From IMG/VR virus record IMGVR_UViG_3300031566_000262, positions 1 through 29,717 of that record: DNA of 29,717 nucleotides. One strand, written 5' to 3'. The notes beneath the pieces are model-generated. The model was not told where the DNA came from. It saw only the letters and a program-made list of their open reading frames with translations, and ran no database searches. Shown here in pieces: positions 4,769 through 29,577 of this stretch; positions within the stretch are counted from its first letter, which is position 1; every line of letters starts with the position of its first letter. Position numbers and translations under genes: made by a program. The stretch comes from a virus.

Positions 4769-4915
4769 TTAATCATACAATTCTTTATTATCAGTTGCCT
4801 CTAATTTAGTACTTTTTGTTTCAAGCATTCTTTTCTTAGAATTTATCACCCACTCTCTAGCTAAATATTGTAAAAAATTATTTAATTTAGAAACAGATAC
4901 AATCCATTTCTTCAT
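4769..4915 (-). CDS. Possible small protein in the gap after the amidotransferase gene
   Basis: A 48-codon ORF begins with an ATG inside the 3' end of the amidotransferase gene (29-base overlap) and reads MKKWIVSVSKLNNFLQYLAR followed by a lysine-rich tail. It fills most of the otherwise empty 4711-4886 interval, which supports it. No clear ribosome site precedes it, which counts against it. No family recognised. The remaining bases up to 4768 hold only the ribosome site of the exonuclease gene. Confidence 0.35.
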   Translation of the reverse strand: MKKWIVSVSKLNNFLQYLAREWVINSKKRMLETKSTKLEATDNKELYD

Positions 4916-5819
4916 CTATTTGAGCCATAGTTGTTCTATATACTTTATCTATAAAGCTTTCTTCTGTATTGTCTGCATTATCCCCAATGCAACTCTGTTG
5001 GGAATAACTGCCTAATCGTTCCCTTGTTTCGCATATCTGTTTTTTTTTATTAATATCACTATTATCTTTAACTTTATATGTTTTTGTTTTTGAATCATAA
5101 GTCACCCAATTACCAGTATATGCATTGCTAGCAAGCCTTGGTAAGAGAGCAATTTTTTTACCCTTCATATATGTGTCTTTAATCAGCACTAAATAATCAG
5201 TAATCATATCTGAAATCATTGCAGCCCGTACTGGTCTCATAATATTAAATGTACTCGCCCAAAATATTGTATTTTCTTTCTGTCCAATAATTAATGGGTT
5301 TCCTGCTGATAATAAAAATAATTGCCTACTGTTGGTTTCAAACAATGAGAAAGCAATCGAACCACTAATTGAATATAATGCATCAGATATTATTTTAAAA
5401 CTTAGAGCACCTATTCCGTTAGTACTTAATCGTAATGCCTCTAAAATAGCTAAACTATCACAAACGTCTTTTTCTACAAAATCATCAGAATTTAAAATAA
5501 CACCATTATGCGCTAATATATAATTGTTTTGCTGTAGGGGATGATTATTGGTAAATACTGTTGGTGTTCCCTGTGTTACAGACCTTGTATGCATAATACA
5601 TATTGGAGATTTTATAATTTTATCCCATGGAATATGCTTAGAAAATTCGCTAGCTTCAATTGGGGCTTTGAATAACTTATAATCATCTTTTTCTTCCCAA
5701 AAGATACCGGTTGCATCAGTTCCTCGACTTGAACACTCTAATAACATTGCACGTAATTGTCGTATTGATGTCGCTGGTTTTTTGCGATCTTTGGTTATAA
5801 AACCACATAATCCACACAT
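4887..5819 (-). CDS. Class II glutamine amidotransferase (Ntn hydrolase)
   Basis: 310 aa. Begins MCGLCGF: after Met removal, Cys2 is the N-terminal nucleophile that releases ammonia from glutamine, as in PurF, GlmS and AsnB. Other family landmarks are RGTDATG (32-38), HTRS (77-80), NNHPL (91-95) and AHNGVI (103-108). There is no synthase domain; the last ~100 residues are a diverged tail. The neighbour 11 bases upstream is an amidoligase, and such pairs are described in phages and bacteria as predicted peptide-tagging or amidation systems in which the amidotransferase supplies nitrogen or remodels amide bonds. Biochemical substrate unknown. Confidence 0.88.
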   Translation of the reverse strand: MCGLCGFITKDRKKPATSIRQLRAMLLECSSRGTDATGIFWEEKDDYKLFKAPIEASEFSKHIPWDKIIKSPICIMHTRSVTQGTPTVFTNNHPLQQNNYILAHNGVILNSDDFVEKDVCDSLAILEALRLSTNGIGALSFKIISDALYSISGSIAFSLFETNSRQLFLLSAGNPLIIGQKENTIFWASTFNIMRPVRAAMISDMITDYLVLIKDTYMKGKKIALLPRLASNAYTGNWVTYDSKTKTYKVKDNSDINKKKQICETRERLGSYSQQSCIGDNADNTEESFIDKVYRTTMAQIDEEMDCICF

Positions 5820-5830
5820 AGATTGTATTC

Positions 5831-6670
5831 CTATCTTCTTCTAGCTAAAATATTTTGTTGATTTACTTGTTTGTTTAATCTTCGCTTTTTAGCCTTTTCA
5901 AAATGTTGCATTCTATATATATAATATCTATGTGTTTTTGTATTAGATATATCGAGAAAATTAAATATGTCAAATGTTATATGTTTAAACGGTCCATGCA
6001 AATATTCCTCAAGTTCTTTTGTGGTCAATTTATTTGCTAATCGCATAAATGATAAACAAAATAACACCCACTTTTTAACTTTCTTATAATTTAATGTTCC
6101 ACTATGACCCCGAAATTCTACTGTACGCTTATGTGTCCATGGTGCTATATTTAATATATTATACCTATTAGCAGTCGCTGGATTAAAGGCTTCTGGTCGC
6201 GAATTTGTTAACTTAATACAATAAGAGTTGTTATGCCTAGTTAATGGAAACACTTTCATGATTTCTAATTCAGATATATACCACAATATGGCCATTTTTG
6301 TTACAAGTTCTTGTGACGATACCCCTACATGACAATGCAATCCACATGAACCATTTACGCTAGAAAAGGGACTTACTATGCTTAATGCTTTCTCGATTAC
6401 TGGAAAATCATTCTGTCTTAATGGCGGAGTAATTAACTCTATTCTTTCTTGATGTTTTTTTGTTGTCTCAATAGAACTATCATATTCAACTCCCCATTTA
6501 TCTGGTGAATGTTGATGATATTCAAAGACTTTTGTATCAACTTTGTGTTTTTCGTATAATATATCATTTTTTCCTTTAAATGTTCTAAATGCCCTTACCA
6601 GTCTTGATGCTATTTCTGGTCTGGTTAATGAAGACATAAATTCGAATTCTAGTCCAAATGTTTGTTTCAT
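5831..6670 (-). CDS. Amidoligase (COOH-NH2 ligase, glutamine-synthetase-like fold)
   Basis: 279 aa behind AGGATAG. Hallmarks of the Amidoligase_2 family: GLEFEF with E8 and E10, a W-x-V-E-Y-D motif (59-64), IELITPP (77-83), GLHCHVG (110-116), NRYNILN (168-174) and TVEFRGHSG (183-191). Enzymes of this fold use ATP to join a carboxyl group to an amine. It is followed directly by a class II amidotransferase, a pairing noted in comparative genomics of the family. Plausible targets are a peptide or protein tail, or host peptidoglycan precursors; the sequence does not say which. The C-terminus is strongly basic (KKRRLNKQVNQQ), possibly for nucleic acid or membrane contact. Confidence 0.88.
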   Translation of the reverse strand: MKQTFGLEFEFMSSLTRPEIASRLVRAFRTFKGKNDILYEKHKVDTKVFEYHQHSPDKWGVEYDSSIETTKKHQERIELITPPLRQNDFPVIEKALSIVSPFSSVNGSCGLHCHVGVSSQELVTKMAILWYISELEIMKVFPLTRHNNSYCIKLTNSRPEAFNPATANRYNILNIAPWTHKRTVEFRGHSGTLNYKKVKKWVLFCLSFMRLANKLTTKELEEYLHGPFKHITFDIFNFLDISNTKTHRYYIYRMQHFEKAKKRRLNKQVNQQNILARRR

Positions 6671-9271: not shown

Positions 9272-9970
9272 TTATTTAATAAGTCCTATTTCTTTTAAAT
9301 CTTTTTCTCCAACAACTTTACATTTATATACTCTGAATTTTCCGTCTGTAGCTGTAGGAATTGCTGCTATATTTTTGGATGTAAACTCTACTATCAAAAT
9401 ATGGTATCCTTTTTTCCAATTTTTTATACACCAGTCAAGGGTGGCCAAAGAGATACCGAATGAACACTGACGTTCAACAGAACAATCTGCATACTTTACG
9501 GTATATGTTTTTCCAATTTCATATTTAATACCCCCAAAAAATGGACCTCTATATAAATTGTTAACAAGTTTATAGGCTCTAATTTTTCCAATTTGATCTT
9601 TTAAAATTAACAATGGTGTACATAAGTTAGGATTTATACCAATGGTTTCGATGAAATTAGCACCATTGAGATCAGCACCATTGAGATCAGCACCATTGAG
9701 ATCAGCACCACTGAGATTAGCACCACTGAGATTAGCACCACTGAGATTAGCACCATAGAGACTAGCGTTATAAAGATTAGCACCACTGAGATCAGCATTA
9801 CAAAGATCAGCACCATTGAGATCAGCACCACTGAGATTAGCACCATTGAGATTAGCGTTATAAAGATTAGCCCTGCTTTGTTGAGCCAAATTTCTTATAG
9901 AATCTTCCCCCTCAGTAATAAGCCTTTTTGAATATTTCCTTCTTATTTCATTTATTATTCTATCTTTCAT
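9272..9970 (-). CDS. Pentapeptide-repeat protein with C-terminal DUF7666-like domain
   Basis: 232 aa behind AGGGGAG. Residues 34-106 are about 15 tandem A(N/D)LxG pentapeptides, which fold into a right-handed quadrilateral beta helix that can mimic DNA. The C-terminal ~100 residues (AYKLVNNLYRGPFFGGIKYE, IGKTYTVKY, then a Cys-containing core and FRVYKCKVVGE) resemble a small domain often fused to pentapeptide repeats in phage and bacterial proteins. An N-terminal helix of about 30 residues is charged. Role unknown. DNA-mimic action against a topoisomerase or a restriction factor is known for some pentapeptide proteins, but is not shown here. Confidence 0.82.
   Translation of the reverse strand: MKDRIINEIRRKYSKRLITEGEDSIRNLAQQSRANLYNANLNGANLSGADLNGADLCNADLSGANLYNASLYGANLSGANLSGANLSGADLNGADLNGADLNGANFIETIGINPNLCTPLLILKDQIGKIRAYKLVNNLYRGPFFGGIKYEIGKTYTVKYADCSVERQCSFGISLATLDWCIKNWKKGYHILIVEFTSKNIAAIPTATDGKFRVYKCKVVGEKDLKEIGLIK
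9653..9871 (-). repeat. 15-bp tandem repeats encoding pentapeptides
   Basis: The DNA behind the pentapeptide region is itself a tandem array of near-identical 15-base units (forms such as CACCATTGAGATCAG and CACCACTGAGATTAG on the + strand). Several neighbouring units are exact copies, which implies recent duplication or gene conversion and makes copy-number change likely. Confidence 0.85.
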
Positions 9971-22161: not shown

Positions 22162-23088
22162 ATGCCCGGACAGTTGTTTGCTACCGCTAATCAGGGCGGC
22201 TACACCTGGTCTAAACTCTTGTCAAAGGAAGTTGTCCACGCTGCTCAGCCCGACATGAAATTTACGCAATTTACTGTCATGCGAGAGCAGTGGGGGAGAA
22301 ATGCCGGTGAGTCTTTTCTGTTCGATAAGTATGGAAATATAGACACACAGGGATCAACCCTTACGGAGACTTCCACTATTCCCGCTCATAGCTACAGGCT
22401 CTATCAGAGCACTGCAACGCTATATGAGAGAGGGAATTCAATTCCGTGGACTAAGAAGTATGAGCTTCTTGCCCAAACAAATGAAAGAGCTGCGCCGGTT
22501 GCTATTCTTAAGAATGACATGGCAAAGGCTCTTGACATTGCTTGTGAGGCGGAATTTGACAAGGCTAAGATTAGGTACATTGGTACAGCAACCAATGTTG
22601 GTGCAACGACAACTAATGGTACTGCGTCCTCAACATGTAAGTCATCTTTAAATACTTATCATGTGAAAGAGATCGTTGATTATATGTATCAGACTATGAA
22701 GGCTGAGCCATATGACGGTCAGAATTTCATGGCTATTTGTTCTACGGATGCCATGCGTGGTTTGTATGATGAGGTAGAGGCTATCTTGCAGTACACTAAG
22801 TTTCCTGCATCTGGCGAGGTTGGCAAGTTTTATGATTGCCGTTTTATAAAGACTAACCATGCTCTAAGTAATACCATGGGATCAAGTTCCGCTTATGGCG
22901 AGGCTTATTTCTTTGGTGGAAACGAGGGGCCGGTATGTGAGGGTGTTGCTAATCCTCCGCAGGTTATTCCTAAGGAGGTAACTGATTACGGTCGGTCAAG
23001 GGGTCTTGCTTGGTATCTCGTTAATGCCTACAAGATTTTCTGGGAAGGCGATCCCGATAACAATATCGTAAAGTACGATTCTGCATAA
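22162..23088 (+). CDS. Major capsid protein, N4-gp56/P22 coat-like
   Basis: 308 aa behind GAGGGG. Typical N-terminus (TWSKLLSKEVVHAAQPDMKF), REQWGRNAGESFLFDKYGNI, and the conserved block LYERGNSIPWTKKYELLAQ followed by an Ile/Lys-rich helix and EAEFDKAKIRYIGTA. This matches the N4-gp56 family with an HK97-type fold. The codons are richer in GC than those of flanking genes, as expected for the most abundant virion protein. Confidence 0.88.
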   Translation: MPGQLFATANQGGYTWSKLLSKEVVHAAQPDMKFTQFTVMREQWGRNAGESFLFDKYGNIDTQGSTLTETSTIPAHSYRLYQSTATLYERGNSIPWTKKYELLAQTNERAAPVAILKNDMAKALDIACEAEFDKAKIRYIGTATNVGATTTNGTASSTCKSSLNTYHVKEIVDYMYQTMKAEPYDGQNFMAICSTDAMRGLYDEVEAILQYTKFPASGEVGKFYDCRFIKTNHALSNTMGSSSAYGEAYFFGGNEGPVCEGVANPPQVIPKEVTDYGRSRGLAWYLVNAYKIFWEGDPDNNIVKYDSA

Positions 23089-23099
23089 GGAGGAACATC

Positions 23100-23498
23100 A
23101 TGCCTAATATGAGCTATGACGACCAGCAGTTTAATATGGTCGAGCGGGAATATCTGGGTAAACATGTTCCTACCGTAACGTTAGCAACATGGGTTACTCG
23201 ATGGTATCCTAAGGGTCCGATACTTATTAAAAAGTTCGGAGTTGTTACAACTGTTGAGAGTACGGGTTCAGAGTTTAGCGTTTCATTACTTGATAGCGCT
23301 GGTAGCACTTTGGCTACAATTGTTTGTTCCACTACTCAGGCGGTTGGTTTGGCGAGTAAAGCACTAACAGGTCTTACGGCTGATCTTATTGTTGCTGGTG
23401 ATTATATTGTTGTCACCGCTGATGGTACATCAGACGCAGGGTCAATGATTCCATTCATTGACTATGTTAGGTCTTATAACGCTAATCACGCCATATAA
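23100..23498 (+). CDS. Probable head decoration or accessory protein
   Basis: 132 aa with a strong AGGAGG site, directly after the coat gene and before the terminator. After 20 polar residues it is beta-rich with small residues (VVTTVESTGSEFSVSLLDSA, IVAGDYIVVTADGTSDAG), like capsid-stabilising or decoration proteins. High expression is expected. No family assigned. Confidence 0.65.
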   Translation: MPNMSYDDQQFNMVEREYLGKHVPTVTLATWVTRWYPKGPILIKKFGVVTTVESTGSEFSVSLLDSAGSTLATIVCSTTQAVGLASKALTGLTADLIVAGDYIVVTADGTSDAGSMIPFIDYVRSYNANHAI

Positions 23499-23558: not shown

Positions 23559-24608
23559 ATGAAGATTGTTAAAATAACAAATCATTGTTGTTTTCGTCTA
23601 AGCAAAGAGGCTATTGCATTACAAAATCTTGGCCATGAAGTTCATGTTATTACACAAAAGATTTCAGCATTTGCTGGTAAATTTGATTCTATTCTTTATT
23701 ATTCGCATCAAGATCAGTTGATTGAGGCCATCAAACTACATGGAGATGCTGATGTATTTCATGCACACAATGAACCATGTTGGTTTGTTAATTTAACAAA
23801 AGCAATATATCCTAATATACCAGTAGTATTAGATGTTCATGATTCTATGTTAATCAGATACCCCGAAGACTGTAAAGATCCAAATGCAGTTAGAATAAGC
23901 GTTGATGAACGCGACAATATGCAACTTGCAGATGGATTGGTATTTGTGTCAGAACCAATGGCAGACATTTGTCGCAAGACATTTAATTTAGAACAACCAT
24001 ATACGATATTACACTCTTATGTCCCCAAAGAATTATATCGAATAGATGCATTTAGATGGATCGGTGGAGTGGTATATGAAGGTCGGGTAGATATTCCAGA
24101 AAACATGGCACCACATTCTCAATTCTTTTCATATTGTGATTATAGAGAATTAGCCAAATCATTGGCAGAAATGGGAATACAATTATTTATGTTTGCTCCA
24201 AATAGAGACATAGACGAAATGACAAAACTATATGATGGCAATGCTATATTCCAAACACCAGTTAATCCAACCGAATTAATTAGAGCAATAGGGTCTCATA
24301 ATTATGGTATCCTTGGAAACTTAACGATACATGAAGATTGGAAACATGCCATGCCAAATAAGTTATTTGATTATCTGGCTGCTGGATTACCAATTATTGC
24401 CATTAATGCTCCACTGGCGGGCAAGTTTGTAGAAGAACATGGGTTTGGAATGAATATAACAGATCCCACAGAGATACCTAGACGATGGGCAGAACACAGA
24501 AAGTTCAGAAAGAACATAGCACAGTATCGCTATGAATGGTGTATGGAAAATCACATACATAAAGTTACAGACTTATATAAGGAGTTAGGGTGTCGAATAA
24601 AGTCTTAG
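23559..24608 (+). CDS. GT-B glycosyltransferase (GT4-like)
   Basis: 349 aa. The N-terminal Rossmann domain begins MKIVKITNHCCFRLSKEAIA and NLGHEVHVIT; DVFHAHNEP (65-73) and VVLDVHDSM are the usual acceptor-domain strands. The C-terminal domain has HAMPNKLFDYLAAGLPIIA (263-281), where the conserved Lys and nearby acidic residues bind the nucleotide-sugar. The classical EX7E is not clear. It transfers a sugar from an activated donor to an unknown acceptor, and is the first gene of the cassette. Confidence 0.82.
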   Translation: MKIVKITNHCCFRLSKEAIALQNLGHEVHVITQKISAFAGKFDSILYYSHQDQLIEAIKLHGDADVFHAHNEPCWFVNLTKAIYPNIPVVLDVHDSMLIRYPEDCKDPNAVRISVDERDNMQLADGLVFVSEPMADICRKTFNLEQPYTILHSYVPKELYRIDAFRWIGGVVYEGRVDIPENMAPHSQFFSYCDYRELAKSLAEMGIQLFMFAPNRDIDEMTKLYDGNAIFQTPVNPTELIRAIGSHNYGILGNLTIHEDWKHAMPNKLFDYLAAGLPIIAINAPLAGKFVEEHGFGMNITDPTEIPRRWAEHRKFRKNIAQYRYEWCMENHIHKVTDLYKELGCRIKS

Positions 24609-25216
24609 CAATAAGTTCCCATCCAGATGATATTGAAATTGGTTGCGGTGCTACACTGGCTCAAGCAGCACGGGATGGTGCAGATATAACACTTTTGGTT
24701 CTCTCATACCATCATCAAGATTTTAAAGGATCAGATGAAAATATAAAATTGTTTGAACTGCGAAATTCAACTGAAAAACTTGGTATAAATAAATATGTAG
24801 AGATTAAGGATTTTCCGAATAGAAAGTTTTATGAACACTATAATGAAATATCAGAATTGTTTTTTGATATATCTGAAGAGATAGATCCAGATATTGTATT
24901 TTTACCAGCATCATCAGACTATCACCAAGATCACAGAACAGTATATGAAACTGGTGTTCGTGCGTTTAAAGAGTGTACCATGCTTGGATATGAGGTTCCG
25001 TGGGATCACCGCATATTTCATCCAGAAGTATTTTTTACATTGGAAGAAAAGTATATTATGCAAAAATGTGATGCTATAGAATGTTATAAATCGGTTTATA
25101 TGAAACATGGTAGCACACTAAGGGAACTCATGATAAGCCTTGCCAGGGTTAGAGGATCACAGGTTCGTACGGAATATGCGGAGGCGTTTGAATGCATAAA
25201 AATGGTGCTGAGATAG
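24590..25216 (+). CDS. PIG-L/LmbE-family deacetylase
   Basis: 208 aa, GTG start behind GGAG, overlapping the glycosyltransferase by 19 bases. Zinc motif HPDDIEIGCG (H11, D13, D14) and HQDH (112-115), with the family spacing. These enzymes remove the N-acetyl group from GlcNAc-linked compounds. The next gene is an acyltransferase of the LpxD type, so the product amine may be re-acylated with a different group. Confidence 0.9.
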   Translation: MSNKVLAISSHPDDIEIGCGATLAQAARDGADITLLVLSYHHQDFKGSDENIKLFELRNSTEKLGINKYVEIKDFPNRKFYEHYNEISELFFDISEEIDPDIVFLPASSDYHQDHRTVYETGVRAFKECTMLGYEVPWDHRIFHPEVFFTLEEKYIMQKCDAIECYKSVYMKHGSTLRELMISLARVRGSQVRTEYAEAFECIKMVLR

Positions 25217-25854
25217 CGGCTAAAAGAGATGAGCGATTAATATTTGCTTTATCTAGAAAAAGACCAAATGAATTATCATTACCGATTGGTAAGAATTGTT
25301 TTATAGATAGAACTGTTAAGATCGGAAAGAGAACAACCATCGGGCACAATGTAGTAATTATTGGTCGAGTTGTAATTGGAGACAACTGCATTATTCGCTC
25401 TGGGGCAGTCATCGGTGAGGAAGGATTCAGTTGGGGATTTGATAAGATGAATATTCCAATTAGATTTATTCATCTTGGTGGAATTATAATCGGAAATAAT
25501 GTAGAAATAGGTTCACAATGCCATATTGCACGGGCAACACTTGAGGAAGCAAATACAATTATCGAAGACAATGTTAAGCTTGATACCATGGTACACATAG
25601 CCCACAATGCCAGAATAGGAGCAAGAACTTGTATGGCTTCAGGCTGTATAATAGCTGGCAGTGTTGTGGTTGGAAAAGATTGTTGGATGGCAACAAAATG
25701 TAATACAACTAGCAACATTACAATAGGTGATCGAGTCCTAGGCGGAACTGGATCAAATATAATTAGGGATATTCCAGACAATGCAATAATTGCTGGTAAT
25801 CCCGCAAGAATACTAAGGACACATAATGATAGACGTGCTGATTCTTACTCTTAA
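25192..25854 (+). CDS. LpxD-like left-handed beta-helix acyltransferase
   Basis: 220 aa. Hexapeptide repeats (VIGDNCIIRSGAVIG, IIIGNNVEIGSQCHIA) form a left-handed helix. The block EEGFSW (76-81) and KLDTMVHIAHNARIG (129-143) match the LpxD signature, with H138 the likely catalytic His. LpxD attaches an acyl chain to the 2-amine of UDP-3-O-acylglucosamine in lipid A synthesis. The N-terminal uridine-binding domain of true LpxD (~100 residues) is missing, so the substrate may differ. It overlaps the deacetylase gene by 25 bases. Confidence 0.82.
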   Translation: MHKNGAEIAAKRDERLIFALSRKRPNELSLPIGKNCFIDRTVKIGKRTTIGHNVVIIGRVVIGDNCIIRSGAVIGEEGFSWGFDKMNIPIRFIHLGGIIIGNNVEIGSQCHIARATLEEANTIIEDNVKLDTMVHIAHNARIGARTCMASGCIIAGSVVVGKDCWMATKCNTTSNITIGDRVLGGTGSNIIRDIPDNAIIAGNPARILRTHNDRRADSYS

Positions 25855-26857
25855 TGATAGTGCCAATACAGCTTGGCGATATATGCAATGTTTAAGAATG
25901 TTGGGATTAAATGTAATGGGGTTCAAGGGTATTTTACATCCATTTTATTACCCTGAACAATTGCCGCTTCATCCTGGTTTAATGCGACATGGAATAGAAT
26001 GGGCAAAAAACAAATCGCATATAAATTTAGTAATGGGAATTGATCATCCAGATCTTGAACATTTTATGAAACAAGCGAAAGTTATTCATTTTTTTCATAC
26101 AACTGCATTTCAAGGTCAAACAGATTTTTCTAAAAAAATAGTAATAGCAAACCATGGTGGATATATATATCGAAAGTTTCATGAAAAATGGAATGGGTTT
26201 ATGAATAAATTTATAGATGCTACTATTATTCAGATGCCAGACTTACTTGACCTTGGAGCAAATAATGAACATTATTTTTCTTTTCCGGTTCAAACTGGAT
26301 TTTTAAAACCAGAATATCGAGACACAACCGATGAATTACGAATAGGTCATTTTCCACCTAACGCCTATTCAAAGGGTACTGCTGATATATTTAATATTGT
26401 TGATGAAAAAATTGCTCCTAAGTTTTCGGACAGGCTCCGCTATGGTGGTCCGACAGGACGAGAAGAAGCACCTATAGTATTTATACCATGGTATAATAAT
26501 CTTGATCAACTTCGATGGGCTGATATTGTTATTGATGATGTCGCTCCCCTTACACCTGGGGGACTTGGATATGGAGAATTTGGAAATACTTCTATGGAGG
26601 CTGCTGCGTTAGGAAAGATTGTGGTTGCTAATTCACTTCGTGTTCATAAATATGCTGAAGTATATGGCGAACTGCCCGAGATTCAAATAGCCAATACTGC
26701 CGAGGAATTAGAGGAAGTGCTTGCTAGATTGTTTTCCGAAACACCAAGCAAGATACATGAACTTCAAGTTAAAACCAGAGAATGGGTAGTACGCAATCAT
26801 AGCATGAAGGCCCACGCCGAGAGGCTATGGAATGAAGTATATAAGCATTTAATGTAA
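25826..26857 (+). CDS. GT-B glycosyltransferase-like protein
   Basis: 343 aa behind AAGGA, overlapping the acyltransferase by 29 bases. N-terminal Rossmann strand MIDVLILTLNDSANTAWRY; the C-terminal half has IGHFPPNAYSKGT, WADIVIDD (231-238) and GEFGNTSMEAAALGKIVVAN (250-269), a nucleotide-sugar binding layout as in GT4-type enzymes. Acceptor and donor unknown. A weaker match than the first glycosyltransferase, hence lower confidence in catalytic activity. Confidence 0.7.
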   Translation: MIDVLILTLNDSANTAWRYMQCLRMLGLNVMGFKGILHPFYYPEQLPLHPGLMRHGIEWAKNKSHINLVMGIDHPDLEHFMKQAKVIHFFHTTAFQGQTDFSKKIVIANHGGYIYRKFHEKWNGFMNKFIDATIIQMPDLLDLGANNEHYFSFPVQTGFLKPEYRDTTDELRIGHFPPNAYSKGTADIFNIVDEKIAPKFSDRLRYGGPTGREEAPIVFIPWYNNLDQLRWADIVIDDVAPLTPGGLGYGEFGNTSMEAAALGKIVVANSLRVHKYAEVYGELPEIQIANTAEELEEVLARLFSETPSKIHELQVKTREWVVRNHSMKAHAERLWNEVYKHLM

Positions 26858-26865
26858 GGAATCGC

Positions 26866-27534
26866 ATGAATGAAATAGAACACTGGGATAACCAGTGGAA
26901 AAAAAGAATTATTTCAGATGATAGGGTTAAAATGAACATGCCTAAATTCTGGAAAATACGCAGAGAATTGTTGAAACGACCATCATTCGGTAGGGCAGAA
27001 AAACTTGAGATAGGATGTGCAAGTGGAATACATGCCAGAATAATGGCACAAGATAATCCATGGTGGAAAGAAAGATGGACTGGAATTGATTTATCTGAGA
27101 TTGCTGTAAATTATGCAAAAAAAATTGGAATGAATGCAATAGTTGCAGACATATCTACATTTAAAACGGATAAGAGATTTAATGTTTTTCTGTTGCTGGA
27201 TACACTAGAACACATTAAAGATAGAGACGCAGCAGCAGCGACAATAAAATCACTTGGTGCCAAATCATATATAATCTTTGGAAACATTCCATTATATACT
27301 GGTAAGTTAGCACATGAAAGTGGATGTGAATGGCCGGTTTCTCCAGCAGATGTTGTTGATTTTTTGAAGAAAGCGGGCTGCACAAAGTCAATGTGGTATT
27401 ATATGTATGGAATGTCTGCGTGTCCATATATGTTATTTGAATCCAGTACGCTTGGATATGTAACGCATGATGTTGGAGCAGCAGATATGAATGATCAATA
27501 TTGTGAATTTCCGAAAGAGAGCGGAAATGAGTAA
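26866..27534 (+). CDS. Class I SAM-dependent methyltransferase
   Basis: 222 aa behind AAGGAA. Motif I is EIGCASG (48-54), followed by GIDLSEIAVNYAKK (73-86), VADIS, and LLDTLEHIKD (110-119) as motif post-II. Similar small methyltransferases modify hydroxyl groups of sugars in polysaccharide cassettes. The lack of a DNA target motif (for example NPPY/DPPY) makes a DNA methyltransferase unlikely. Confidence 0.85.
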   Translation: MNEIEHWDNQWKKRIISDDRVKMNMPKFWKIRRELLKRPSFGRAEKLEIGCASGIHARIMAQDNPWWKERWTGIDLSEIAVNYAKKIGMNAIVADISTFKTDKRFNVFLLLDTLEHIKDRDAAAATIKSLGAKSYIIFGNIPLYTGKLAHESGCEWPVSPADVVDFLKKAGCTKSMWYYMYGMSACPYMLFESSTLGYVTHDVGAADMNDQYCEFPKESGNE

Positions 27535-28573
27535 AGAAGATTGCATAGTATGTCATTATCAAGCATATGGCGATACAATCCATATGTCTGTTATTATAGA
27601 TGAACTAAAGAAAAAATATAAACATATCTATATGGATGTCAACGAATATGGTCTTCAATTATTTAACCATGATCCAAGAATAGATAAAATATCATACTTT
27701 GAGCCTTGGTTTCATTTTGATGGAATGAACCTAGGGCCAGGAATACAGAAACACATTCAAAAGATTAGGGATAAAAATCCAAATAAAGATGTAATCGATT
27801 TCTTTGGTTTTGCTGATTATCAATTTTTTGACACAGAGGTTGAACCCTGGTCATTTGAAAAGCGTAAAGAAATATATGGGAGGAACTGGCATGAAAGATA
27901 TTTTGAGGCTGCTGGTCTTGAAGTTCCGAATAATTTTACTGCGTCTTATCCGAGCATATCATTTAATCCGACTGTATATGATGAAATAGAAAAACATTGG
28001 TATGCGCCGAATAAAGATTCTTTTAATATTATCACCCCCTTGGGCGGTTCAACCCGAAACAAGGGGTTCCCCCAGTGGATAGATGACTTTGGTATTCGTA
28101 TAATAGACGCTCTGCCTAAAGCCAAGCTATTCACTGTGGGCGATCAGCATTGTCCCAGCCTTGAATGGAGACATGAAAGAACTATACATCTTAGTCATCG
28201 CAATGATAGGGCGCACCTTCCAATGGTAAATGCTATAGTTATGACAAAATATGCCAATTATGTTTTTGGTGCGGAGACTGGAATTTTATCTGCTGCCGGT
28301 ATGTACGGAACTCCGAAGACTACATTGTGTACCTGTTCCTCGGTATCACAATTATGTAAATACCATAAGAATGATTATTCTATGCAAGCAGAGATTGACT
28401 GTTCCCCCTGTCATAGAACTTGCTTTCATGGGCCGAGCAGGCAAAAAGAACCATGCCCCAAATCTGAGATGATGATATATCCATTTATGCCATTATGTAC
28501 AGAGAGATTTAATCTTGATAAATTATTTGATTTAATATATGGACAATATATACAATGGGAAAAACAACAATAG
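27527..28573 (+). CDS. GT9-like (heptosyltransferase-type) glycosyltransferase A
   Basis: 348 aa from the ATG at 27527, which overlaps the methyltransferase stop by 8 bases. N-terminus HYQAYGDTIHMSVIIDEL, like the GD-I motif of GT9. C-terminal domain: PLGGSTRNKGFPQW (171-184) and FGAETGILSAAG (247-258), where the conserved ETG and following residues bind the donor phosphates. A Cys set (C292, C295, C299) near the end, CSPCHRTC, is shared with its neighbour. GT9 enzymes such as WaaC and WaaF add heptose to the LPS core. Confidence 0.78.
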   Translation: MSKEDCIVCHYQAYGDTIHMSVIIDELKKKYKHIYMDVNEYGLQLFNHDPRIDKISYFEPWFHFDGMNLGPGIQKHIQKIRDKNPNKDVIDFFGFADYQFFDTEVEPWSFEKRKEIYGRNWHERYFEAAGLEVPNNFTASYPSISFNPTVYDEIEKHWYAPNKDSFNIITPLGGSTRNKGFPQWIDDFGIRIIDALPKAKLFTVGDQHCPSLEWRHERTIHLSHRNDRAHLPMVNAIVMTKYANYVFGAETGILSAAGMYGTPKTTLCTCSSVSQLCKYHKNDYSMQAEIDCSPCHRTCFHGPSRQKEPCPKSEMMIYPFMPLCTERFNLDKLFDLIYGQYIQWEKQQ

Positions 28574-29577
28574 TATTTCGTCACGCTGGTTGTGGTGATG
28601 CGATACAGGCATCCTGTGTATTACCATATCTAAAAAATGATGGATATGAAATTACATTCTGTGCGAATAGACGTGTAAAAGAAATTCTTTCTAATAACCC
28701 ACATATTAGTAATTGGATGCACTTTGAAGATGATGTAATTCCTTATCATGAATTGGATGAATGGTATAAAAATACTGCAAAACCATTTGATAAGAGTGTG
28801 ATTCTTACAGGTGTAGTTGAAAATGAATTACTATATGGCCTTGGACAACCTGAATGGGAATGGACAGACGAGGCAAGAAGGGCTAAGGCAAATGGAAAGA
28901 ATTATTTTGATGCTCATATTGAGCGTGCTGGTTATATCGGAGGTCGCCCTAACGGTGAATTATATTTTACGAGATCGGAAAACAGGCGAGCAATTGCTTG
29001 GAGAAAGAAACTCAAGGATAAAGGAAAAGTAATTATTGGTTGGGCATTAGCAGGTTCAGCGGCACACAAGGCATACAAACATACAGAACAAGTAATCCGA
29101 TTATTTGCTAAGGTATATCCAGATAGTCATTTCGTTTTCTTTGGAGATTATATAACAAAGTTATTAACGTTTGAACACCCAAATACTGATAATCATTTTG
29201 TGGTTACTGAACCATTCTTTAGAGAAAGTCTTTTGTTTGCAACATATTGTGATATGGTAATAGGGCCTGAGACCGGAATAGTGATGGGAGCTGGCACAAA
29301 GAACAGTATACATAAAATACTTTTAGCAAGCCATAGTTACCCAGAACAGATTATAAAATATTGGGACAATGCTGAGGCCATACTTCCTCCGTGTGAGAAA
29401 TGCTCCCCATGCCATAGATTGTTTAAATTTGCTGGTACATATGGAGACGTGTGTGAAATAATTCATGAGACCAGCCAAGACAATGACGATATACTTATTC
29501 CAAAATGTTGTTATCATGAACCAGAATTAGTATTGGCTGCAATCGAGAGAGCATATATAGCGGTTAACAGCGGTTAA
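28555..29577 (+). CDS. GT9-like (heptosyltransferase-type) glycosyltransferase B
   Basis: 340 aa. Tandem paralogue of the preceding gene, overlapping it by 19 bases. FRHAGCGDAIQASCVLPYL (8-26), GWALAGSAAHKAYK (162-175), MVIGPETGIVMGAG (234-247) and CEKCSPCH (280-287) match its pattern. Likely uses a related donor. The stop codon lies in the second copy of a 10-bp tandem repeat AGCGGTTAAC (29559-29568, 29569-29578). Confidence 0.78.
   Translation: MGKTTIVFRHAGCGDAIQASCVLPYLKNDGYEITFCANRRVKEILSNNPHISNWMHFEDDVIPYHELDEWYKNTAKPFDKSVILTGVVENELLYGLGQPEWEWTDEARRAKANGKNYFDAHIERAGYIGGRPNGELYFTRSENRRAIAWRKKLKDKGKVIIGWALAGSAAHKAYKHTEQVIRLFAKVYPDSHFVFFGDYITKLLTFEHPNTDNHFVVTEPFFRESLLFATYCDMVIGPETGIVMGAGTKNSIHKILLASHSYPEQIIKYWDNAEAILPPCEKCSPCHRLFKFAGTYGDVCEIIHETSQDNDDILIPKCCYHEPELVLAAIERAYIAVNSG

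Follow-up and report, generated by a model that had tools for sequence, protein, structure and literature searches.

A phage encodes, in overlapping genes, a PIG-L-type de-N-acetylase and an LpxD-like acyltransferase that would probably act in succession on the same amino sugar, exchanging its N-acetyl group for another acyl group. The window analysed here, a virus record of 29.7 kb (29,717 nucleotides), contains terminase, portal and major capsid genes identified by family profile matches. Related phages carry both genes of the pair or neither, and in bacteria the same kind of deacetylase stands beside an LpxD-like enzyme or beside another candidate amine-modifying enzyme.

A glycosyltransferase island in the structural region

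Downstream of the capsid gene and the gene for a 132-residue protein, which gave no match in a family search, the island runs in the order GT1, PIG-L, LpxD-like gene, GT2, methyltransferase, GT3 and GT4, with all genes on the plus strand and tightly packed (Table 1). Neighbouring genes overlap at the first three junctions, by 19 nt (GT1/PIG-L), 25 nt (PIG-L/acyltransferase) and 29 nt (acyltransferase/GT2), and SD-like sequences stand at the expected spacing, aaggag 5 nt upstream of the PIG-L GTG and ggagg 7 nt upstream of the acyltransferase ATG; the island genes are therefore probably translationally coupled. The original prediction, a PIG-L gene overlapping an LpxD-like gene by 25 bases between two glycosyltransferases, agrees exactly with the coordinates of the open reading frames, and both glycosyltransferase-like neighbours themselves overlap the pair. 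GT2 has no Pfam match of its own; its relatives match Glyco_trans_1_2 weakly, just under the cut-off, and a search for relatives of known structure returned nothing significant. None of the seven island proteins contains a convincing membrane segment (maximal 19-residue hydropathy mean, 1.6), and no lipid genes were found in the cassette.

Table 1. Features of the island and its upstream context, in window coordinates.
Feature	Coordinates	Strand	Evidence
Major capsid protein	22162..23088	+	phrog_1357, E=1.3e-11; start of the island's context
132-aa protein, possible head decoration protein	23100..23498	+	position; recurrence in L064, L065, L070, L075
GT1, glycosyltransferase, Glyco_transf_4 N-terminal domain	23559..24608	+	PF13439, E=6.7e-14
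PIG-L (LmbE-like) de-N-acetylase, 208 aa, GTG start	24590..25216	+	PF02585, E=1e-19
LpxD-like left-handed-beta-helix acyltransferase, 220 aa, ATG start	25192..25854	+	NCBIfam LpxD models best
25-nt overlap of PIG-L and acyltransferase genes	25192..25216	+	ORF coordinates
GT2, GT-B-like glycosyltransferase	25826..26857	+	weak Glyco_trans_1_2 match of relatives; conserved adjoining pair
SAM-dependent methyltransferase	26866..27534	+	PF13489, E=2.2e-9
GT3, putative glycosyltransferase, GT9-like by eye only	27491..28573	+	no family match
GT4, putative glycosyltransferase, GT9-like	28555..29577	+	weak Glyco_transf_9 match of L064 relative

Elsewhere in the window, at 4887-6670 on the minus strand, an amidoligase gene (PF12224, E=2e-25) adjoins a class-II glutamine amidotransferase-like gene, possibly as a peptide- or cell-wall-modifying pair, and a 232-residue pentapeptide-repeat protein is encoded at 9272-9970 on the minus strand.

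Identity of the deacetylase and the acyltransferase

By its sequence, the predicted product of 24590-25216 is clearly a member of the PIG-L/LmbE superfamily with its catalytic residues kept. It scores 71.7 bits against Pfam family PF02585 (gathering score 28.2), and residues H11, D13, D14, H112, D114 and H115 (HxDD ... HxDH), which we take to match the catalytic and metal sites of LmbE-like enzymes residue by residue, are invariant among 10 phage and bacterial relatives. The AF2 model (pLDDT 89.3) has the Rossmann-like PIG-L fold; its best Foldseek matches are TT1542, BshB, diacetylchitobiose deacetylase and teicoplanin deacetylase, with TM values of 0.81-0.84 against TT1542, BC1534 and BshB. 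Members of the LmbE-like superfamily have been reviewed as metal-dependent enzymes (PMC4101496). The nearest named deacetylase family is BshB1, and identity with this bacillithiol deacetylase was rejected at a TIGR04001 score of 68.3 bits, far under the cut-off of 182.5. PHROG 11796, listed as of unknown function, is matched by the window protein over nearly its full length and could be named accordingly.

The second enzyme had been called LpxD-like, a description that holds for kinship and fails for membership. Its best profiles are those of LpxD, PRK00892 with 161.6 bits (cut-off 207) and TIGR01853 with 149.3 bits (cut-off 242.5), followed by LpxA with 90 and NeuD with 87 bits, and the top PDB matches of the sequence are LpxD chains. 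Could it side with the sugar O-acetyltransferases instead, the grouping that would have told against the original prediction? The profile scores, on which we base this comparison since O-acetyltransferase outgroups are placed unreliably by long branches, put LpxD closer: WbbJ reaches 67, maltose acetyltransferase 55 and LacA 52 bits against 161.6 for LpxD. An earlier tree that included E. coli O-acetyltransferases joined them to the window protein through long branches at an unsupported 24%, and was rebuilt without them.

As anticipated, the uridine-binding domain of LpxD is missing and the HIAHN core is kept. The N-terminal domain profile PF04613 finds no match in the acyltransferase (control, E. 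coli LpxD, 76.9 bits), and LpxD matches begin only at profile position ~131-140; in the PRK00892 alignment, protein residues 32-210 cover profile positions 140-317. Within HIAHN, H138 aligns with H239 of E. coli LpxD and H125 of LpxA. The second active-site histidine of E. coli LpxD, H276, corresponds to N175 in the window protein, and no aligned pair-type member has His at this position. The C-terminal helical ACP-binding extension of LpxD is missing as well: the window protein stops ~16 residues past AGNPAR, a C-terminus resembling that of many acetyl-CoA-dependent hexapeptide enzymes.

In the rebuilt tree, a single clade unites the pair-type proteins of phages and bacteria and excludes the 16 canonical LpxD sequences (support 97/98); within this clade, the phage members are a single group (100/99) whose nearest neighbour is a Fibrobacter protein (94/83). 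All seven phage members in the tree, 197-220 aa long, are without the N-terminal domain; most bacterial pair-type members keep a diverged PF04613 domain, in one case above the cut-off. Scores below the curated cut-offs, the missing uridine domain, H276 and ACP helices, and a position outside the LpxD clade led us to reject membership in LpxD. The putative acyltransferase is, on these comparisons, a sister or offshoot of LpxD forming its own clade. Its AF2 model, built from an eight-sequence alignment, reached a pLDDT of 69, and Foldseek placed pentapeptide-repeat proteins and right-handed helices first, with nothing at E<=0.001; we set this model aside as uninformative.

The pair and its exchange in phages and bacteria

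With GT2 as bait, 14 related phage contigs were retrieved, eight carrying both pair genes and six neither. When near-identical contigs were merged into lineages and the window added, both genes were present in six lineages (window, L064, L065, L066-L069, L070, L077), neither in five and one alone in none; the pair is thus conserved together, as the original prediction entailed. Co-occurrence this perfect would arise by chance 1 time in 462 if the lineages were independent; their common ancestry and the shortness of some contigs qualify this figure. Recurrence in other phages argues that the arrangement in the window is not fortuitous. In L075, GT1 and GT2 are separated by just a 110-aa ORF, and because they stand there without the pair, the latter seems to be gained or lost as a unit. 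The constant core in this phage group consists of PIG-L, acyltransferase and GT2, and GT1 lies beside the pair in some phages only. We therefore dismissed GT1 as an obligatory partner by PIG-A/PIG-L logic, since L066-L069 and L077 have the three core genes and no detected GT1. In L065, a relative of the methyltransferase is placed between GT1 and PIG-L; in L009/L013, which belong to a different phage type, the genes come in the opposite order, with a longer acyltransferase.

Bacterial genomes were scanned with the acyltransferase, and the best 80 loci were retained. Of these best 80, 71 were LpxD-type, called by length and, mostly, by a nearby LpxA-like gene, and a neighbourhood scan found a PIG-L match in 0 of the 71. 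Six of the nine non-LpxD-type loci have PIG-L directly upstream. The pair is preceded by WbpA-, WbpB-, WbpD- and WbpE-like genes in L095 and L119, and by WbuX- and HisH-like genes in L082. Their gene content identifies these three loci as predicted O-antigen/EPS-type clusters that make unusual amino sugars; those of L082 and L119 belong to Pseudoalteromonas or Chryseobacterium strains. Since L095 and L119 already encode a WbpD-like acetyltransferase, the pair would supply an additional N-modification there. At L141:3372-6552, a single bacterial polysaccharide cluster encodes two different LpxD-like proteins, with no PIG-L found nearby.

Which enzymes accompany this PIG-L subfamily in bacteria? 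A subfamily profile was run on the phyla of L082 and L119 and matched in 3 of 299 and 17 of 296 genomes, respectively. Within ~1.5 kb of these 20 copies we found an LpxD-like gene in nine (by clade-type profile; two are seeds, L162 is divergent and L163 reversed), WbqC in four, ATP-grasp (PF15632) in three, another hexapeptide protein in one and none of these in three, so that 17 of the 20 sampled copies have a candidate partner enzyme. In two of the four WbqC loci a GNAT-like gene is present as well, in one of them confirmed by Pfam. In L162, the PIG-L and LpxD-like genes are adjacent but back to back on opposite strands, sharing no operon. Viral contigs L017, L022, L025, L028 and L039 likewise carry the same kind of PIG-L near ATP-grasp (PF15632) or WbqC instead of the LpxD-like gene. 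The PIG-L tree requires at least 10 partner changes: L174, with WbqC, falls within an LpxD-like group (group support 99/99), and L039, also with WbqC, is sister to L017, which has ATP-grasp (100/94). Coupling of acids to amines is a reaction open to ATP-grasp ligases, as amine acylation is to GNAT enzymes. The best evidence for a second step on the amine exposed by the first is this combination of a constant deacetylase with a variable second enzyme. It amounts to association and falls short of proof, because polysaccharide loci are the usual setting of every one of these families.

Proposed reaction, alternatives and precedents

We propose that PIG-L, using a metal-bound water, would remove the N-acetyl group from an N-acetyl amino sugar; its substrate would be UDP-GlcNAc of the host (or a relative) or the sugar once transferred to its acceptor. 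The LpxD-like enzyme, with H138 as general base, would then acylate the freed amine anew; the incoming group is expected to differ from acetyl, because re-acetylating the same amine would be futile. A short acyl-CoA would be a likelier donor than a fatty acyl-ACP, because the ACP helices are lost. Bacterial forms with the uridine-type domain probably act on UDP-sugars, and the phage forms, having lost it, may act after transfer or on another carrier. The neighbouring soluble glycosyltransferases, GT2 at least, would build the modified sugar into a glycan. Relatives of this phage have the island within their block of structural genes, with capsid/decoration genes on one side and an SU10-type (neck) adaptor gene on the other; the acceptor would for this reason most likely be a virion protein, gene position being what suggests virion glycosylation.

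The analysis shows the gene structure, the homologies, the catalytic residues, the conservation of the pair as a unit and the exchange of partners; a common amine for both steps, the identity of sugar and donor, and delivery to the virion are what we infer. We regard the complete statement, including short acyl-CoA donor and virion-protein glycan, as evenly balanced between right and wrong, and place more confidence in the swap by itself. The swap, the core of the original prediction, gains support from the unit-like conservation of the pair, the intact catalytic residues, and the replacement of the acyltransferase, beside the same PIG-L subfamily, by other enzymes that may modify amines. On the other side, PIG-L and hexapeptide genes are common in polysaccharide loci and their association may be looser than it appears, the predicted phage acyltransferase is without a domain for binding a UDP-sugar, and no partner was recognised for 3 of the 20 PIG-L copies in bacteria. 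A broader view is offered tentatively, as possible though somewhat doubtful: the phage capsid would be decorated with an N-acyl-swapped amino sugar through a plug-in cassette, common to bacterial surface-polysaccharide loci, that combines an amine-exposing PIG-L with an exchangeable enzyme (LpxD-like, WbqC, ATP-grasp).

The main rival on the acceptor keeps the swap and directs its product into a glycan on the surface of the infected cell, such as O-antigen or capsule, rather than the virion; blocking superinfection would be one possible purpose. O-antigen/EPS clusters do contain bacterial relatives of the pair, but no flippase, polymerase or membrane protein was found in the cassette (maximal hydropathy 1.6), and genes in the structural block would come late for cell protection; we judge this destination unlikely. 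The two enzymes might instead serve different sugars or positions, with the acyltransferase working as an N- or O-acetyltransferase that depends on acetyl-CoA, and the product of the deacetylase staying a free amino sugar. Joint retention or loss of the overlapping genes, and the usual presence of another possible amine-modifying enzyme where the acyltransferase is missing, make this improbable, although the C-terminus and length of the acyltransferase are like those of acetyl-CoA-dependent sugar acetyltransferases and the PIG-L subfamily also occurs without an LpxD-like partner.

The product had been foreseen for a surface glycan or a glycolipid, of which the glycan remains plausible and the glycolipid does not fare well. 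A true LpxD-type reaction, moving a fatty acyl group from acyl-ACP onto the amine, would be in keeping with LpxD as the best characterised relatives and with the retained HIAHN. We nevertheless consider it very unlikely: the C-terminal ACP-binding helices, H276 and the uridine domain are all missing, the acyltransferase falls outside the LpxD clade, and the cassette is devoid of lipid genes and membrane segments. It is just as hard to credit phage DNA, with hypermodified bases, as the target of the glycan, or a small thiol-like metabolite of the kind made in bacillithiol or mycothiol synthesis; BshB1 is the nearest named deacetylase family, but its score is far under the cut-off (68 vs 182 bits), and no base-modification gene was recognised among the proteins scanned from this incomplete record.

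Deacetylation followed by reacylation is already known from lipid A, Nod factors and teicoplanin. In lipid A synthesis, LpxC and LpxD likewise de-N-acetylate and then N-acylate a GlcNAc derivative, with a homologous acyltransferase and the same catalytic His; however, the phage deacetylase is PIG-L and not LpxC, and the phage acyltransferase is without the N- and C-terminal domains and H276 of LpxD and outside its clade. Rhizobial NodB and NodA deacetylate GlcNAc and then N-acylate it, but belong to families unrelated to the phage pair. A GT-B glycosyltransferase followed by a PIG-L deacetylase is the order in GPI (PIG-A/PIG-L), MshA/MshB and BshA/BshB; these differ in the next step, and in L066-L069 and L077 no GT1 was detected next to the pair. 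WbpA-B-E-D clusters for 2,3-diamino-uronic sugars resemble the genes that the bacterial pair follows in L095 and L119, but the described pathway is without the pair, and the window proteins scanned include no recognised member of this gene set. For teicoplanin and A40926, the freed glucosamine amine is later acylated with a non-acetyl group, with a glycopeptide antibiotic as target and an acyltransferase from another family. There too, a PIG-L-type deacetylase frees the amine (PMC4101496). In P. aeruginosa, the PIG-L gene PA5002 (DnpA) adjoins the GNAT gene PA5003 in an LPS-core cluster (PMC8005017), and it has been proposed that WaaG transfers GalNAc, DnpA may deacetylate it and a further enzyme adds L-Ala (PMC10579960). 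This system differs in being bacterial and in its partner family, and the role of DnpA there is speculative.

In the open library, which does not extend to subscription journals, we found no paper on the pairing of PIG-L with an LpxD-like enzyme in bacteria or phages, nor any that links PIG-L to WbqC or describes the pair from O-antigen clusters. If the proposed swap is correct, the pair would serve as a marker in genomes for surface polysaccharides with amino sugars N-acylated by groups other than acetyl, and would suggest that phages apply the same chemistry to their own glycans. It would also call for caution with short 'LpxD' annotations outside lipid A operons, which would often be something else. 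A tblastn search of plasmids returned mostly matches annotated as lpxD.
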